Source of the DNA: Chthoniobacter flavus
GTDB lineage: Bacteria; Verrucomicrobiota; Verrucomicrobiia; Chthoniobacterales; JACTMZ01
Direction of reading: 5' to 3'
Length of the DNA: 64,000 nucleotides
Assembly: GCA_945878135.1 (NCBI GenBank)
Contig: CAMDUL010000001.1
Location: forward strand, 124,001-188,000
In this document: positions 37,762 to 46,357 of the stretch, piece after piece
Layout of the letters: each line of letters opens with the position of its first letter
Numbering within the stretch: position 1 is the stretch's first letter
Notes under the pieces: generated by a model
Database searches by the model: none
Told to the model about the DNA's origin: nothing
What the model saw: the letters and a program-made list of their open reading frames with translations, nothing else
Position numbers and translations under genes: made by a program

Positions 37762-38550
37762 TCAGAGGCGCCGCAGTTGGAATCCGCCATCCACGTCGAT
37801 CACGCTCCCCGTGCTGAAGGGGAAGTCGCCGCGGCACAGCGCGGCCACGGACAATCCGACATCCTCCGGCGTGCCCCAGCGCTGCTGCGGGACCAGGCCC
37901 TCGGCGATCAGCTTGTCGTATTTGCCGGTCACCCCCGCGGTCATGTCGGTCTTCATGATCCCCGGGCGCACCTCGTAGACTTGCACGCCTTCGGAGGCGA
38001 GGCGGACGGACCACAATTGCGCAGCCATGGCGAGGCCGGCCTTGGCGATGCAGTATTCGCCGCGGTTCACCGAGGCGGTGTGGACGGAAATCGAGGTGAC
38101 GAAAACAAGTTTGTATCCCCCGGGGAGCAGCGACTGGCCGGGATGGGCCAGCCACCACCGGGCCGCGAGCTGGCTGAGGAAATACGGGCCGCGCAAGTTG
38201 ACCGCGATGACCTCGTCGAAATTTTCTTCATCCGCCTCCGTGATATCGGCCCGCACCTTCGGAGCGATGCCCGCATTGTTGACCAGTCCGTCGAGACGGC
38301 CGAACTCGCCGAGCACCGCGTCGATCATGGCCCGACGCTCGGTCGCCGATGACAATTGGGCGGACACGGGAAAGAATCTCTGGTCCGCCTCCCGCGCGGC
38401 CCCGCGGCAAAGCTCAACCGCTTCATCGGCCGCCGCGCGGTTGCTCGCGTAGTGGACCGCGACATCGTAACCCTCCTTGGCCAGGGAGATCGCGACCCCG
38501 CGGCCGAGGCCGCGGCTCGCGCCGGTGACGAGGATAACAGGTCGTGGCAT
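37762..38550 (-). CDS. SDR-family oxidoreductase (3-ketoacyl-ACP reductase-like / possible KduD-type)
   Basis: MPRPVILVTGASRGLGRGVAISLAKEGYDVAVHY; VNNAGIAPKV; GEYCIAKAGLAMAAQLW (YxxxK); IDVDGGFQL. Confidence 0.92.
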   Translation of the reverse strand: MPRPVILVTGASRGLGRGVAISLAKEGYDVAVHYASNRAAADEAVELCRGAAREADQRFFPVSAQLSSATERRAMIDAVLGEFGRLDGLVNNAGIAPKVRADITEADEENFDEVIAVNLRGPYFLSQLAARWWLAHPGQSLLPGGYKLVFVTSISVHTASVNRGEYCIAKAGLAMAAQLWSVRLASEGVQVYEVRPGIMKTDMTAGVTGKYDKLIAEGLVPQQRWGTPEDVGLSVAALCRGDFPFSTGSVIDVDGGFQLRRL

Positions 38551-38606
38551 AATCAGACCCTGCGCCGAAAACTCGACCGGAGCCATGGGCGAAAACGCTT
38601 TATTCC

Positions 38607-38633
38607 GCACAAAAACGACTTTATTTATTGTGC
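38607..38633. promoter_or_regulatory. Candidate operator: GCACAA(n15)TTGTGC inverted repeat in the divergent region upstream of the AraC gene
   Basis: Read directly; overlaps the expected leader just upstream of ATG 38636. Confidence 0.3.
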
Positions 38634-38635
38634 TG

Positions 38636-39451
38636 ATGCCGAAAGCTCTGTCCGCCCCCGTGGCGCCCATTGTCCTGCGCCGCCTCCGGTTGCGCTGCGG
38701 GGACTGGTCGGTGCGCGCCCTGCGGGTCAACCGCCATCTGCAACCTTTCGAGCGTTACGCGCCGCACCGGCACCCGCACGGCCAACTGCTGCTCTACCTG
38801 CGCGGCCGCGGCGAGCAGCGCGTCGGACGGCAACGCTACCCCGCCGGGCCCGGCACGGTCTTTTTCATCCCGCCCGGACGGATCCATGAATTCCGCGAGC
38901 AGGCACCGCGCCGCGCCATCTGCCTGGTGGCCGACCTCGGCGGCGCCGCGCCGAAGCGCAGCGGCTTCCGCCGCGGACACCTCTCCGCCGAGTCCCTCGC
39001 CTCCGTGCGGCAGCAGGTCGCGGCCTTGTCTGCGGAGAACGGCCGCCATCTCGACCTGACCGCCGGCGGGGCCGCCCTGCTTATCCTCGACGCCTGCCGC
39101 CGCGCTTGCGCCGGCGAATCATCCGGCCCGCGAGCCGGTTCGGCCATCCTCGGCCGGCTGCAACGGGCATGGCGGAGCAGTGAGGACGGACATTGGCCGC
39201 GACCGGGTGAGCTGGCGCGGCGCACCGGTCTGCAAAAGGACTATCTCAACCGCCTGGTGCGGCGCGCCTGCGGCTTGACCCTCGGGCAATGGCGCGACCG
39301 CGAACTGCTCCGCGTCGCGGAAAATGAACTCAAACGCGGCGTTCGCGTCGGTGCGGTTTCCGCGTCCCTCGGCTTCAGCGACCCGAGCTACTTCGCCCGC
39401 TGGTTCCGCAAACAGACCGGCCTGCCGCCCTCGCACTGGTCTCCCTCCTGA
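38636..39451 (+). CDS. AraC-family transcriptional regulator with N-terminal cupin-like domain
   Basis: HRHPHGQLLLYLRGRGEQRVGRQRYPAGPGTVFFIPPGRIHEF; C-terminal HTH LARRTGLQKDYLNRLVRRACGLTLGQWRDRELLRVAENELKRGVRVGAVSASLGFSDPSYFARWFRKQTGLPPSHW. Confidence 0.94.
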   Translation: MPKALSAPVAPIVLRRLRLRCGDWSVRALRVNRHLQPFERYAPHRHPHGQLLLYLRGRGEQRVGRQRYPAGPGTVFFIPPGRIHEFREQAPRRAICLVADLGGAAPKRSGFRRGHLSAESLASVRQQVAALSAENGRHLDLTAGGAALLILDACRRACAGESSGPRAGSAILGRLQRAWRSSEDGHWPRPGELARRTGLQKDYLNRLVRRACGLTLGQWRDRELLRVAENELKRGVRVGAVSASLGFSDPSYFARWFRKQTGLPPSHWSPS

Positions 39452-39459
39452 TATCCCCG

Positions 39460-40209
39460 ATGCCGGATGTTTCTTCCCCGTGGGTCTGGGCGCTGGCCCT
39501 GACCGCCGCCTTCTGCGTTGGCCTGTCCAAGACCGGATTCGGCGGGCTCGGCATCGTCGCCGTCTCCCTCTTCGCCCAACTGTATCCGGCCAAGGAATCA
39601 ACCGGCGCACTGCTCCCGCTGCTGATCTTCGCGGACCTTATCGCCGTGTGGTTCTACCGAAGCCATGCCAACTGGCCGGACCTGGCCAAGCTCCTGCCCG
39701 CCACCCTCGCCGGCATCGTCTGCGGGTGGTGGCTCATGCCGCGGATCCCGGACCACGCTTTCATCGTGCTGCTCGGATGGGTCATTCTCGGACTGACGGT
39801 CCTGGCCACCGCGCAACGCCTCCGGCCCTCAATGATGAGCCGCATCGACCATCACCCTTGGCTCGGTCTCGTCGCCGGTTGGGCCACGGGCGTGACCACC
39901 ATGCTGGCCAACGCGGCCGGGGCCATTGCCGCGTTCTATTTCCTCGCCCGGCGGATGGACAAAATGACTTTCGTGGGCACCGCGGCCTGGTTTTTCCTCA
40001 TCATCAACGTGGCCAAAATCCCTTTCAGCGTGCACCTCGGCCTGCTCACAGCCTCCTCGCTCCGCTTCGACGCCCTGCTCCTCCCGGTTGTACTCGCCGG
40101 CGCCGTGGCGGGTCGCCTTATCCTGCGCCGCGTTCCGCAACGCGTCTTCGAATGGGTCACCATCGCCCTGGCCGGTGCGGCGGCGCTGCGGCTCGTTCTC
40201 GCCTCTTGA
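39460..40209 (+). CDS. Sulfite exporter TauE/SafE family (TSUP) protein
   Basis: FCVGLSKTGFGGLGIVAVSLFAQLYPAKESTGALLPLLIFADLIAVWFY; GWATGVTTMLANAAGAIAAFYFLARRMDKMTFVGTAAWFFLIINVAKIPF. Confidence 0.94.
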   Translation: MPDVSSPWVWALALTAAFCVGLSKTGFGGLGIVAVSLFAQLYPAKESTGALLPLLIFADLIAVWFYRSHANWPDLAKLLPATLAGIVCGWWLMPRIPDHAFIVLLGWVILGLTVLATAQRLRPSMMSRIDHHPWLGLVAGWATGVTTMLANAAGAIAAFYFLARRMDKMTFVGTAAWFFLIINVAKIPFSVHLGLLTASSLRFDALLLPVVLAGAVAGRLILRRVPQRVFEWVTIALAGAAALRLVLAS

Positions 40210-40273
40210 CGGGAAAAAGCGGGACGGGGAATTAGACGTGGCGTCACTCTCCCCGACCGGCTACCACAAATCC

Positions 40274-41332
40274 GTGCCCCGGCCCCGCCTCATCGCCATC
40301 GCCCTGCTTCTGCTCGTCTCCGCCGCAACGGCGTCGACCGCGCCCCCGATGACGGAACTCCTCACGCCGCCCCCCTCCGACGGACCCTTTGTCGTCCAGA
40401 CCGGCTTCCAGTTGCTCGACATCAACACGATCGACGACCAGAGCGAGACCTTCTCGTTCACCGGCATCTTGTCCGTGCAATGGAAAGACGAGCGCCAAGC
40501 ATTCGACCCGGCGGCCGAGGGTGTTCCGGAAAAATTTTACCAGGGCAATTTCCAATTCAACGAGATCGCGACCTCTTGGTATCCGGAAATCTCCCTGCTC
40601 AACACCTCCGGCCCGTTCGAGAAAGGCGAGCCGCTCCTCCGCATCCGGCCCGACGGCACCAGCATTCTGGTCACGCCGGTCAGCGCCACAGCGAAGTCCG
40701 GACTGCACCTCCGCCGCTATCCCTTCGACCGCCAGACTCTCCGGGCTGTCTTTGCCATGCCGGGCTACACGGATTCCGAGGTAGTCATGCAAACCCTGCC
40801 GCTGCCGTCTCTCGCTCCCTCGGAAATCCGCGTCCCGCAGTGGGTGCTGACCCGGACGCACGCCCTGACCGAGACCGTGCTTCCGACCGCTCCCGGCCTG
40901 CCGGGACGCACCTCGGTCTTCGTTTTCGAAACAGAGGTCAAACGGCAGGGCGCTTTTGTCATGCGTTTGGTCATCGGTCCCCTCCTCCTCGTCGTCATCC
41001 TGTCCTGGTCGGTCTTCTGGATGGATCGCGCCTCGGTCGGCGACCGGATGAGCGTGTCCTTCGTCGGCTTGCTTACCGCCGTCGCCTACCAGATCGTCCT
41101 CGGCGACATCCTCCCGCACATTTCCTACCTCACCGCGGTCAACGTCTTCGTCAATATCAGCTTCATGACGATGTGCGCCAGTATCGTGGTGAATCTGTTC
41201 GTCGGCGAATTCAACCGCGAGGGCCGGGCCGCCGAGGCCGATGCGCTGGATAACCGGTGCAAGAGAATCTTCCCCATCGTCTATTTTTCGCTCATCGTGG
41301 TGACCATCCTGATTTTCACCCTCAAATTCTGA
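40274..41332 (+). CDS. Pentameric ligand-gated ion channel (prokaryotic Cys-loop/Pro-loop receptor homologue, GLIC-like)
   Basis: GTG 40274, signal-like VPRPRLIAIALLLLVSAATAS; ligand-binding domain VQTGFQLLDINTIDDQSETFSFTGILSVQWKDERQAFDP and LHLRRYPFDRQTL; M1 PLLLVVILSWSVFWMD; M2 GDRMSVSFVGLLTAVAYQIVLGDILP; M3 YLTAVNVFVNISFMTMCASIVVNLFV; M4 RIFPIVYFSLIVVTILIFTLKF. Confidence 0.95.
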   Translation: MPRPRLIAIALLLLVSAATASTAPPMTELLTPPPSDGPFVVQTGFQLLDINTIDDQSETFSFTGILSVQWKDERQAFDPAAEGVPEKFYQGNFQFNEIATSWYPEISLLNTSGPFEKGEPLLRIRPDGTSILVTPVSATAKSGLHLRRYPFDRQTLRAVFAMPGYTDSEVVMQTLPLPSLAPSEIRVPQWVLTRTHALTETVLPTAPGLPGRTSVFVFETEVKRQGAFVMRLVIGPLLLVVILSWSVFWMDRASVGDRMSVSFVGLLTAVAYQIVLGDILPHISYLTAVNVFVNISFMTMCASIVVNLFVGEFNREGRAAEADALDNRCKRIFPIVYFSLIVVTILIFTLKF

Positions 41333-41359: not shown

Positions 41360-42934
41360 TCAATCCTCCGCGCTCCGCCAGAACATCGACTTCAGCGGAT
41401 GCTCGTCGAGCACATTGCCCTCGAGACCCCTGAGCTTGTTTCCATCGTAAAGCTGGATGCCGACATAAAAATAAAGCGGACAAACCGGCATCTGCTCGCA
41501 GACTAGAAGCTTCTCCGCCCTGCGCAGGATTTCATGCCGCTTGGCCGCATCGGTCTCCGCCGCAGCCTCGGCTATCAGGCCGTCGTAACGCGGATCGCTC
41601 CATCCCGTGCGGTTGTTCCCGCCACCGGTGACAAACATGTCGAGAAAGGTGTTGGGATCCGGATAATCCCCCACCCAACTGGAGCGCGCAATGTCATAAT
41701 CGAGACGGCTCATCGAGTTGAGATACACCTTCCACTCCTGCCGCAGGAGTTGCACGTTCACGCCCAGCAACTGCCGCCACATGCTCTGCAGTTCCACCGC
41801 GATGGCTTCGTTCAGTTCGCCCTCGCTGTAAAGGTAGTTGACCATGGGAAAGCCCTCGCCCTCCGGAAACCCCGCTTCGGCCAGCAGGCGCCGCGCCTCT
41901 TCGATATTGCGTCCGCCACACTCGCCGAACGGCACATAGCCGCCCGCGCCCGGCGGCACGAAGCTGTCCGCCGGCAATTCCCCCGCCCGCGTGATGCGGT
42001 CGACGATGGACTGCTTGTCGATGACCAGACTGAACGCCCGCCGCACCCGCTCGTCCGTGAACGGCCCTTTCTCGCAATTATAGCGCAGGAAATAGGTGCC
42101 GAGAAACGGGGCCGCATGAAAATCGTCCCGCTTCTTGATCTCGCCGAGCAAGGCCGGCGGCACCAGACCCTTGTCCATCATCAGGTCGGCCTGGCCGCTC
42201 GCGTAGAGGTTGAAGGCCGTGTTGGCCTTGCTCACCGGAATGACATCGATGGTTTCCATCGCGACCTTGTCCGCATTCCAATAGCGGGGATTTTTCCGCA
42301 GCCGGATGCGGTCGTTGAGACGCCACGATTCGAGCACGTAGGCACCATTGCTCACCAGGTTGCCGGGCTTGATCCAATTGTCCCCGTGCCTGGCGATCGC
42401 GTGGAGCGGCACCGGCAACAGCGTGACGAACGAGCAGAGATCCAAAAAGAACGGCGTGGGATTTTCCAATTCGACCCGCAGCGTGCGGGCATCGGGCGCG
42501 GTCACTCCGACCCCTGCGAAGTCGGTCATTCCGCCCTCGTTGAACGCCTTGGCATTTTTGACGTAATGCAACTGGTACGCGTATTCCGATGCCGTGGCCG
42601 GATCGAGGGTCCGCCGCCACGACTCGACAAAATCCCGCGCGGTCAGCGGCGTTCCGTCACTCCAGACAAGCCCTTCGCGCAGCGTGAAGGTGTAGACCCG
42701 GCCGTCCGCGGAAACCTCCCAGTGCTCGGCCATCCCCGGCTGCGGCTTCCCCCTCTGGTCGAAGGTCAGCAAGCCCTCGAACAACGCATTGGCCACCCGG
42801 CCCTCCGGTTGGCCCGTGATCAAGGCCGGGTCGAGCGTTTCGGGTTCCGCGCCGTTGAGAAAAACCAGATCGGCCCGCGGCTGCGGCGAGCAACCGCTGC
42901 AGAGCAGGAACGCGAACAAAAGCAGAAAAGGCAC
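41360..42934 (-). CDS. Peptide ABC transporter substrate-binding protein (OppA-type SBP family 5), lipoprotein
   Basis: MPFLLLFAFLLCSGCSPQPRADLVFLNGAEPETLDPALITGQPEGRVANALFEGLLTFD; EHWEVSADGRVYTFTLREGLVWSDGTPLTARDFVESWRRTLDP. Confidence 0.95.
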   Translation of the reverse strand: MPFLLLFAFLLCSGCSPQPRADLVFLNGAEPETLDPALITGQPEGRVANALFEGLLTFDQRGKPQPGMAEHWEVSADGRVYTFTLREGLVWSDGTPLTARDFVESWRRTLDPATASEYAYQLHYVKNAKAFNEGGMTDFAGVGVTAPDARTLRVELENPTPFFLDLCSFVTLLPVPLHAIARHGDNWIKPGNLVSNGAYVLESWRLNDRIRLRKNPRYWNADKVAMETIDVIPVSKANTAFNLYASGQADLMMDKGLVPPALLGEIKKRDDFHAAPFLGTYFLRYNCEKGPFTDERVRRAFSLVIDKQSIVDRITRAGELPADSFVPPGAGGYVPFGECGGRNIEEARRLLAEAGFPEGEGFPMVNYLYSEGELNEAIAVELQSMWRQLLGVNVQLLRQEWKVYLNSMSRLDYDIARSSWVGDYPDPNTFLDMFVTGGGNNRTGWSDPRYDGLIAEAAAETDAAKRHEILRRAEKLLVCEQMPVCPLYFYVGIQLYDGNKLRGLEGNVLDEHPLKSMFWRSAED

Positions 42935-42998
42935 CCGTCATTGATGGCCCGATCGTCGCTTGCTGACAACCCCCCGATTGATCCCCTATGCTGACCCG

Positions 42999-44681
42999 AT
43001 GCCGTCCGACGCTGTCCGCTTCACCGGACTGACCGCCTTTCTCAGCATTGCCTTGGCGCTGGCCGCTTATTTTTTCGCCCTCGGCAGCGATCACGCGGCG
43101 ACCAATGGCGACGAGTTGCTCTACGCGCAAATCACGCGCCTGACCGCGGAGAACGGCCACTGGCTGCCGTTGCAAAGCGAGGTGGAACGCCACCGCAACA
43201 CCAAGCCGCCGGCCCTTTTCTGGCAGGGCATTGTTTCCACCGGCTGGGCGGACCACTACAAGCTGTGGCGTTTGCGCTATCCGAGCGTGCTTTACACCCT
43301 AGCTTTGGCCGGTCTGGTCTTCTTGACCGGACGAAAACTCGGCGGCACCGCCTCGACCGGCCTGCTCGCGGCTCTGGTCTACCTGGCATTCTTCGGCACT
43401 TACCGCTACGGGCGCGTCTTCCTCACTTCCGCTCCGGAAACCTTCTGGCTCTTCCTGCCCTTCTGCCTCCTTCTACTGCGCCGCAGGCCCGTTGCCCCGA
43501 TCGGCTGGGCCTGGGCCGCCGCTTTCGGGCTGATGTTCGGACTGGCCATGCTCTACAAGTCCTTCGCCCTCGCGGTTCCGGCCGCCGCGGGGCTGGCTTG
43601 GTGGACGCTCGACGCGCGCGGCTACCGGGTGGGAACGTGGCTGAAACACGACGCGCCGCAAATCGTGCTGGCCGGACTTCTCTCGCTCGGGGTTTTCAGC
43701 CTCTGGTATTTCCTCGATCCGCAGCGCCACCTCATCATCGCCGACTTCGTCCTCGACGAGAACGTCGGCAAGTTCGACACGGAGGGCGAAAACTATTTCG
43801 CCAATCTGCTGTGGGGAGGGTCGAGCATCTGGCGCAATGTTGTTTCCTATCCGATCAACGCCGGGCTGCTCGCTCCTGCGGTCATCGCGGTCTTCGTCCT
43901 CGGCTTCTTGCGCCGCAAGGAACAGACCGGGAGCGAGAAACTTCTCTGGTTCTGGCTCATCACCCTCTTCGCGGTCTTCTCCCTGCCGAACCAACGCGAC
44001 GAGCGTTACCTCCTCCCGGGCATGCCGGCCCTCGCCGTTCTCTGCGCGCTTTACTGGCCGCGGATTCCGCTTTGGTTGCTCGGCCTCGGCTTGCTCGCGG
44101 TCGGCGTCATTGCCTTCGGCATGGGCTGGGGCGCGCTCCTCCTGACCCGCGACCTCGCCGCCGGCCCGCTCTATCCGTGGTATTTCTGGGCCTTCCTCGC
44201 CGGCCTGATCGCCTTTGTTGTCACCATTCTCTTCCGCCGTGCCCCGATCCGGTCGGCCGTGGTGCCTGCCATCCTGCTGCTTTACCTGGCTTTCGGGCTG
44301 TTTCTTATTCCTTTCGATGGCCCCCGCGGCGCCTTTGATCGCACGGCGCAGGACTTCGCACGCGGCAAAGCGTTCCCGGCCCCGGTCAACTTCGGTGCGC
44401 GCGAAGAGATCTACCGCTTCCTCCTCCCGGGCTCGAATCCCCGGCCTTACAAGATCAAGAACACGCCGAGCCTCGACGAACTTCGCGCAAACAACGGCCT
44501 GTTCATCGTCACGGTGCCGCTGGGCGACCGGACGGTCGAAGCGGATTCGCGCCTGCGGGTCGTCGGGTCACGCCTGCAACTCATCGACCGGTTCAACAAC
44601 GCCGAAACGGTGGACATGCTGCGCGGGAATGTTTCGCGGAATATCTTCAAGGAAGATTTGCTCGTGGAAGTGAAGCCATGA
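42999..44681 (+). CDS. Glycosyltransferase family 39-type (ArnT-like) membrane protein
   Basis: SDHAATNGDELLYAQITRLTAENGHWLPLQ...HRNTKPPALFWQ; multiple TM segments; QRDERYLLPGMPALAVLCALYW. Confidence 0.88.
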   Translation: MPSDAVRFTGLTAFLSIALALAAYFFALGSDHAATNGDELLYAQITRLTAENGHWLPLQSEVERHRNTKPPALFWQGIVSTGWADHYKLWRLRYPSVLYTLALAGLVFLTGRKLGGTASTGLLAALVYLAFFGTYRYGRVFLTSAPETFWLFLPFCLLLLRRRPVAPIGWAWAAAFGLMFGLAMLYKSFALAVPAAAGLAWWTLDARGYRVGTWLKHDAPQIVLAGLLSLGVFSLWYFLDPQRHLIIADFVLDENVGKFDTEGENYFANLLWGGSSIWRNVVSYPINAGLLAPAVIAVFVLGFLRRKEQTGSEKLLWFWLITLFAVFSLPNQRDERYLLPGMPALAVLCALYWPRIPLWLLGLGLLAVGVIAFGMGWGALLLTRDLAAGPLYPWYFWAFLAGLIAFVVTILFRRAPIRSAVVPAILLLYLAFGLFLIPFDGPRGAFDRTAQDFARGKAFPAPVNFGAREEIYRFLLPGSNPRPYKIKNTPSLDELRANNGLFIVTVPLGDRTVEADSRLRVVGSRLQLIDRFNNAETVDMLRGNVSRNIFKEDLLVEVKP

Positions 44682-46357
44682 GCATAAGGGAATCGGTCCT
44701 TCCGCGCTGGCTCGGGGTGCTGGCCCTCGGCTTCGCCGCTTTTGTCTACCTGCACAACACCGGGAGCGAACACGCGGCGACCAACCCGGACGAGTATCTT
44801 TACCTGCAGATCGCGCGATTGACCGTAGAGACCGGACAATGGCTGCCCTTGCAGGCGGCCAAGACGGAGCACCGCAACACCAAGCCACCGGGGCTTTTCT
44901 GGCAGGGAATGGCTTCGAGCAATTTCGGGAAAAGCTGGGAACTGTGGCGGTTGCGCCTGCCCAACGCACTTTTTTCCATCGCCACCGCGGCCATGGCCTT
45001 CCTGCTGGCCCGCCGGATCGCGGGGACGTTTTCCGCGGGTGTGGTCGCGGCGCTGGCCTACCTCGCTTTCCTCGGCGTCTACCGGCACGGCCGGGTCTTC
45101 CTGACCAGCGCACCGGAAACCTTCTGGCTGTTCCTCCCGTTTTTCATCCTCCTCATGCGGCCGCGCGCTGGTCTCGGTTGGGGGACGGTGCTGGCCTTCG
45201 GGTTCATGCTCGGCGCCGGGCTGCTTTACAAATCCTTCGCCATGATCATCCCGTCCGCCGGTGCCCTCGCCTGGTGGACTCTTGACCAGCGCGGATACCG
45301 TCCGGTCGCCTGGCTGCGACGCGATGCGCCCAAGATCGCCGTCCTCACCTTTGTCGCGCTCGCGGTCTTTGCCCTTTGGTTCCTTCTTGATCCGCAACGG
45401 CAGTTCATCCTGCAGGATTTCGTCCTCAAGGAAAACGCGGGCAAGTTCGATCCGCACGAAGCGGGCTACCTCGCCACCGCGCTGTGGGGCAAACACAGCA
45501 TCTGGGCCTACACCCTCGGATGGCTGGCCAATGCCGGACTGGTCGCCCCGGCCGTCCTCGCGATGTTTGTCCTCGCGTGGCGCGGACGCCGCGCCATGGC
45601 ACCGTCCGAGCAATTGCTCTGGATCTGGATCATCACCCTTTTTGTTTTCCACCTCCTGCCCAACATCCGCTACGAACGCTACCTGCTCCCGGCCATGCCG
45701 GCCGTGGCCGTGCTCTGCGGCGTTTATTGGCCCCGCCTGCCGCGCGGGATTCATGCGGTGACCCTTGCCGTTTGCGCCGTGTTGGGGCTCGCCCTTTTGT
45801 CGGGCGCGCTCCTCCTCGCCGGCTCGCTCCGCGATTGGTCCGTTTACGGTCTGGCCGACTGGCTGATGCTCGCTTCCGTTGCCGGTTTCGCCCTCGCCGG
45901 GTTGCTCGCGGGAAACCGGACCAGCCTCTTCCCCTTGCCCGCCGTGCTCCTGGTCTATCTCGGCTTCGCCATTTTCCTTCGTCCCTTCGACGGCCCGCTT
46001 GGCGCGTTTCCTCCCGCGGCCGTCGAGGCGGCGCGGGGCCGGAGCGTGGCCGTCCCGTCGCCCTTCATCGCGCGGGATGAACTTTACCGCTTGCGCCTCC
46101 CCGGAGCGGACGTCCGCCGGATCCGGCCGAAGGATTTGGCGAATGCCTTGGCCGGGACGGAAAGCGACCTGATCATTTTCCCCGTGACTTTGGCTGCGCC
46201 GCCCATCGTCCCCGGCTTCCGTGTGCTGGGCAGCCGTTTGCGTCTGAACGACCACTTCAACGCGGAACAAACCGCCGACCTGCTCCGGGGCAATATCGCG
46301 CGGCAGCTTTTCCAGCGCGAACTTCTGGTCGAACGCGTGACCTCAGCCCCGCGTTAA
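44678..46357 (+). CDS. Glycosyltransferase family 39-type (ArnT-like) membrane protein, tandem paralogue
   Basis: SEHAATNPDEYLYLQIARLTVETGQWLPLQ...HRNTKPPGLFWQG; ATGA overlap with the preceding gene; IRYERYLLPAMPAVAVLCGVYWPRLP. Confidence 0.88.
   Translation: MSIRESVLPRWLGVLALGFAAFVYLHNTGSEHAATNPDEYLYLQIARLTVETGQWLPLQAAKTEHRNTKPPGLFWQGMASSNFGKSWELWRLRLPNALFSIATAAMAFLLARRIAGTFSAGVVAALAYLAFLGVYRHGRVFLTSAPETFWLFLPFFILLMRPRAGLGWGTVLAFGFMLGAGLLYKSFAMIIPSAGALAWWTLDQRGYRPVAWLRRDAPKIAVLTFVALAVFALWFLLDPQRQFILQDFVLKENAGKFDPHEAGYLATALWGKHSIWAYTLGWLANAGLVAPAVLAMFVLAWRGRRAMAPSEQLLWIWIITLFVFHLLPNIRYERYLLPAMPAVAVLCGVYWPRLPRGIHAVTLAVCAVLGLALLSGALLLAGSLRDWSVYGLADWLMLASVAGFALAGLLAGNRTSLFPLPAVLLVYLGFAIFLRPFDGPLGAFPPAAVEAARGRSVAVPSPFIARDELYRLRLPGADVRRIRPKDLANALAGTESDLIIFPVTLAAPPIVPGFRVLGSRLRLNDHFNAEQTADLLRGNIARQLFQRELLVERVTSAPR

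Follow-up and report, generated by a model that had tools for sequence, protein, structure and literature searches.

The window, a 64,000-nucleotide stretch of a Chthoniobacter flavus contig, carries on its forward strand a gene for a pentameric ligand-gated ion channel (pLGIC) subunit, which runs from a GTG at 40274 to a stop codon ending at 41332 and comprises 352 codons (Table 1). Start, stop and length (ORF 40274-41332, 352 aa) had already been given in a preliminary description and were confirmed here; translation could also begin at 40238, where another GTG lies in the same frame. Upstream lie genes for a TauE/SafE transporter (39460-40209) and an AraC-type regulator (38477-39451). Downstream, a convergent gene for an SBP_bac_5 solute-binding lipoprotein-like product (41360-42934, minus strand) is followed by tandem genes for PMT-like membrane glycosyltransferases (42960-44681 and 44678-46357), and this SBP-PMT-PMT order was retained in two congeners (L036 and L037). 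No conserved neighbourhood recurred beyond the genus or a Halieaceae group, bar one protein family in three loci. PBP-II genes adjoin some bacterial pLGICs (Tasneem et al., PMC549065). The SBP_bac_5 gene is convergent, and congeners alone share its position, within a wider synteny; no conclusion was drawn from its adjacency, because it is transcribed from the other strand and the association does not extend past the genus. Between congeneric orthologues of the channel gene itself, dN/dS was about 0.25 (0.029/0.124, and 0.068/0.266 for L036-L037), demonstrating purifying selection on this gene within the genus.

Table 1 Features of the pLGIC gene (positions in the window)
Feature	Position	Strand	Basis or remark
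pLGIC subunit gene, 352 aa	40274..41332	+	GTG start, stop included; Pfam, PDB match, AF2 model
Probable signal peptide (PRPRLIAIALLLLVSAATASTA)	40274..40345	+	Predicted; sequence reading, AF2 helix at residues 4-16
Extracellular ligand-binding domain	40376..40873	+	PF02931 match, residues 34-199
YQGNFQFNE, clade-specific conserved insert before loop A	40538..40564	+	Aligns with outer rim of ELIC vestibule site
Pro-loop YPFD, without flanking cysteines	40718..40729	+	Alignment
Pre-M1 Arg, residue 223, equivalent of GLIC R192	40943..40945	+	Alignment
M1 helix	40952..41020	+	AF2 model
M2 pore segment, -2' to 20' (GDRMSVSFVGLLTAVAYQIVLGD)	41039..41107	+	-1' Asp, 0' Arg, 2' Ser, 9' Leu
M3 helix	41135..41218	+	AF2 model
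M4 helix, after very short M3-M4 loop	41228..41326	+	AF2 model

Pfam searches of the window protein gave 54.7 bits for PF02931 (Neur_chan_LBD, cut-off 26) and 45.6 bits for PF02932 (Neur_chan_memb, cut-off 28.1), and NCBIfam model NF033918 (LGIC_1) matched with 180.8 bits, under its 500-bit cut-off. In a phmmer search of PDB sequences, GLIC and GLIC chimaeras were matched over nearly the full length at 2e-34 to 5e-31, the best chimaera match (2.1e-34) spanning residues 30-337. AlphaFold (AF2), given a 30-row alignment of the window protein and its relatives, produced a monomer of ten beta strands forming a beta-sandwich, followed by four helices (residues 226-248, 251-278, 287-314 and 318-350), with a mean pLDDT of 84.7; the N-terminus and the stretch near residues 91-100 (block mean 62) were modelled with the least confidence. 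Foldseek aligned this model with GLIC (TM 0.80/0.90, the latter by target length; E 1.5e-26) and with the GABA-A beta3 homomer (TM 0.82/0.86). The signature residues of the superfamily include the Pro-loop [F/Y]PxD, the pre-M1 Arg, the M1 Pro and the M2-M3 Pro (Jaiteh et al., Table 1; PMC4795631). YPFD, the beta9 Trp, R223, P235 and P280 were all kept, and P149, D151, R223, P235 and P280 were invariant over the 30 rows. WKDERQAFDP and LRRYPFDRQTL, which the preliminary description had likened to GLIC, align with WKDRRLAFDP and FRRYPFDSQTL in the solved GLIC sequences. Cysteine occurs just twice, at 301 and 329 (counted from the initiator Met as 1), in M3 and M4. The Cys-loop pair flanking the Pro-loop is therefore absent, which sets the protein apart from Cys-loop receptors in the strict, metazoan sense, while the YPFD proline is present, as had been noted. 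HMM, fold and alignment agree, and there is no reasonable doubt that the window protein is a pLGIC subunit; the original view of a bacterial pLGIC whose pore bears a cation-type signature is thus well founded.

The M2 letters reported earlier were correct, and the segment aligned with that of nAChR without gaps. Compared with Torpedo nAChR alpha, 6 of 23 positions were identical and the BLOSUM score was 32, which none of 5000 shuffles equalled; identity was 8/23 to ELIC, 7/23 to 5-HT3A and 3/23 to GLIC (the 5-HT3A and Torpedo reference sequences were verified beforehand). BLOSUM scores of M2 to the cationic Cys-loop receptors (nAChR/5-HT3) were 30-32 for the window protein, 21 for GLIC and 19-25 for ELIC. 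The pore is not fully nAChR-like, because Val replaces the nAChR Ser at 6'. ELIC M2, checked letter for letter against 2vl0, reads S-E-R-L-Q-T-S-F-T-L-M-L-T-V-V-A-Y and thus carries the matching -1' acid (Glu), 0' Arg and 9' Leu. In the 55 bacterial rows aligned, D/E stood at -1' in 46, Arg at 0' in 48 and Leu at 9' in all 55, and almost all of the roughly 40 close relatives in bacteria, which come from seven phyla, share the whole pattern. An E-[RK] cation motif was found in about eight bacterial sequences as early as 2004 (Tasneem et al., PMC549065). Since the pattern is common to ELIC and the bacterial relatives of the window protein and the motif was reported then, an nAChR-like M2 is the norm in this bacterial subfamily and hence is not new. 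ELIC, a cation channel that opens in response to primary amines, GABA among them (PMC3119659), has E-1' as its selectivity filter and L9' and F16' as its gates (PMC12637682). By analogy with the -1' acidic ring of ELIC and nAChR, we may soundly infer a cation-selective pore.

A protein scan of genome contigs detected 32 related loci with 30-66% identity, the nearest in other Chthoniobacterales/Spartobacteria bins and one Prosthecobacter bin. Within the class sample, PF02931 matched in just 29 of 384 genomes, so that the distribution of these channels in the class is sporadic; a literature search combining pLGIC with Verrucomicrobi found no paper. Trees were built from loci of Verrucomicrobiota, Planctomycetota, Myxococcota, Pseudomonadota, Acidobacteriota, Gemmatimonadota and Binatota; a partial sequence from a Flavobacteriales bin (L062) was excluded, and sTeLIC and DeCLIC were not among the sequences used. 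Two trees agreed in placing the window protein in a bacterial clade of 31 rows (clade A, support 100/98), whose sister is clade B (11 rows, 100/100; A and B together 100/99). ELIC grouped with A and B in the first tree (87/84) and was unplaced in the second.

The bin that holds the window (G000) also contains a clade B pLGIC (L001/L112), 31% identical to the window protein, on the 9.9-kb contig C43. DNA of this contig was mostly 86-94% identical to the congener G010 (92% in the pLGIC gene), whereas the window locus was 73% identical to its syntenic locus in G010. Two gyrA copies in the bin differ by 11% (89% DNA identity), one of them being 96% identical to G004; no match to rpoB (PF00562) was found in the bin, and G+C was lower in the gyrA contigs (about 61%) than in the window (65%; contigs compared: C17, C18, C43 and C1). 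These results indicate that the bin is probably composite, with gene transfer as a lesser alternative, and because of this composite look the second pLGIC is not confidently assignable to G000. Xenologous replacement of the window copy, suggested by its protein identity of 61-66% to congeners against 93.5% for the clade B copy, was rejected, since gene (73%) and flanking DNA (73% nt) have diverged to the same degree.

Relative to GLIC, the ectodomain contains a seven-residue insert before loop A with the pattern [YF]QGx[FY]QFNE, found in both clades (the window copy at 40538-40564, L036-L065, L001, L005-L007 and L012-L018). In the alignment it was absent from GLIC and the eukaryotic receptors, and in the other verrucomicrobial pLGICs examined it was missing or the residues there were unrelated. 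It ranked as the fourth most conserved of 183 ectodomain 9-mers in the A+B set. ELIC also has extra residues at this position, with a different sequence, and the rim of the ELIC vestibule site is N60-F95 (PMC7015668). The AF2 model is rather unsure right at the insert. Judged by its sequence, YQGxFQFNE is a reasonable candidate, and the best one in the protein, for a sensing or regulatory element; its conservation would be explained equally well by structural roles such as packing or assembly.

Taken as a whole, the evidence makes it very probable that the gene encodes an exported bacterial pLGIC subunit which forms a homopentameric, cation-selective channel, gated elsewhere than at the classical amine box and without special relation to animal receptors. 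What might open such a channel was weighed on the residues of the ligand-binding domain. The amine pocket of ELIC, which we take to consist of F19, Y38, E77, R91, N103, E131, F133, Y174 and F187, aligns (at about 22% identity to ELIC) with F19Q, Y38I, E77S, R91L, N103V, E131A, F133P, Y174P and F187T, and the alignment indicates that the classical amine-binding aromatic box is absent from the window protein; other members of clade A more often keep E131 or an aromatic residue at F19. A channel whose interfacial aromatic pocket binds GABA or primary amines as agonists is for this reason improbable, although the pore is most similar to that of ELIC, which responds to these ligands (PMC3119659). 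GLIC-like proton gating, in which acid would neutralise the equivalent of E35 at the domain interface and so open the pore, has a better claim and is a possibility of some substance, though a doubtful one. In its favour, GLIC relies on E35 as a key proton sensor (PMC5760087), no solved sequence matches better than that of GLIC, and the window protein keeps D32, E35, P120, D122, R192 and P247, including the D32-R192-D122 triad. H235, E222 and E243, however, are Ala, Gly and Gly, E26 is Asp, and a single conserved Glu that most of the subfamily keeps whatever else varies is a weak sign. It is rather unlikely that clades A and B gave up the interfacial agonist pocket altogether and are gated from the vestibule through the YQGxFQFNE insert; if they did, the primary agonist site known from the pLGIC superfamily would have been relocated to the insert. 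Some other solute or ion, acting perhaps in the vestibule, takes the remaining weight.

Two further readings concern the ancestry of the channel and its assembly. The pore had been described beforehand as possibly closer to eukaryotic receptors than that of GLIC. Literally this stands, by a small margin, on the M2 scores of 30-32 against 21; as a sign of a special link it fails, because ELIC carries the same M2 signature and the tree rejects it. The five eukaryotic receptors clustered together (96/96), apart from the bacterial clade, and a tree constrained to unite clade A with them had an lnL lower by 39.1 (p-AU 0.0034). The phylogeny that the preliminary description had proposed as a check therefore did not bear out such kinship, which the tree and the AU test rule out under the present sampling, and we give hardly any weight to a specific evolutionary link with the cationic eukaryotic receptors. 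A two-gene heteromer of the window protein with its clade B paralogue (L001/L006/L007/L005) would fit the genus, where four of 11 genomes hold both clades and seven neither. Co-residence in G010 is solid, because both genes sit on one 532-kb contig (C1:1800 and C1:265787, about 264 kb apart); that in G000 is doubtful, the bin being apparently composite. Outside the genus, however, A occurs alone in G079, G184 and G304 and B alone in G162, G241, G350 and others, which disfavours an obligate heteromer, and the two proteins are unlinked and only 31% identical. We know of no bacterial heteropentamer, and a heteromer of this kind is very improbable.

According to the favoured reading of a homopentameric, cation-selective channel, the subunit would be exported, and five copies would most likely assemble in the inner membrane into a homopentamer whose ligand-binding domains face the periplasm. 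A small extracellular solute or ion may open the channel through a site other than the aromatic box, for which the YQGxFQFNE insert at the vestibule rim is a candidate, and opening would allow cation flux through the M2 pore. The window protein itself is an ordinary further member of the prokaryotic pLGIC family, which has been known since 2004 (PMC549065) and was broadly inventoried in 2016 (PMC4795631). The subfamily may be of more use, with dozens of relatives in about seven phyla, none of them close to a solved structure, and with a pore like that of ELIC, a classical ligand site that has degenerated and a highly conserved vestibule-rim insert occurring together. If the insert is the sensing site, vestibular gating could be studied cleanly in these channels, a matter relevant to drug design on human receptors.

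Among known channels, GLIC, the proton-gated channel of Gloeobacter violaceus, resembles the window protein in the whole fold, in WKDxRxAFDP and RRYPFDxQTL and in D32/E35/P120/D122/R192 (24.5% identity over 318 columns). The window protein departs from it in M2, with the acidic -1', the basic 0' and Leu 9', in the seven-residue insert before loop A and in lacking H235, E222 and E243. ELIC of Erwinia/Dickeya shares the acidic -1', 0' Arg, SF at 4'-5', L at 9', T at 10' and VAY at 12'-14', as well as WSVFW ending M1, but overall identity is 22% and the aromatic and acidic residues of its ligand pocket are lacking in the window protein. Muscle-type nAChR alpha and 5-HT3A have the acidic -1', basic 0' and 9' Leu in common with it and a partly conserved M2 (6-7/23), whereas Cys-loop cysteines, a large M3-M4 domain and the aromatic box are absent from the window protein, which falls in a separate clade. 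Its own subfamily is formed by the clade A pLGICs (L036-L065, seven phyla), with up to 66% identity, the same M2 and the YQGxFQFNE insert; the differences are those of usual divergence, together with the more frequent retention of E131 or the F19 aromatic among its relatives.
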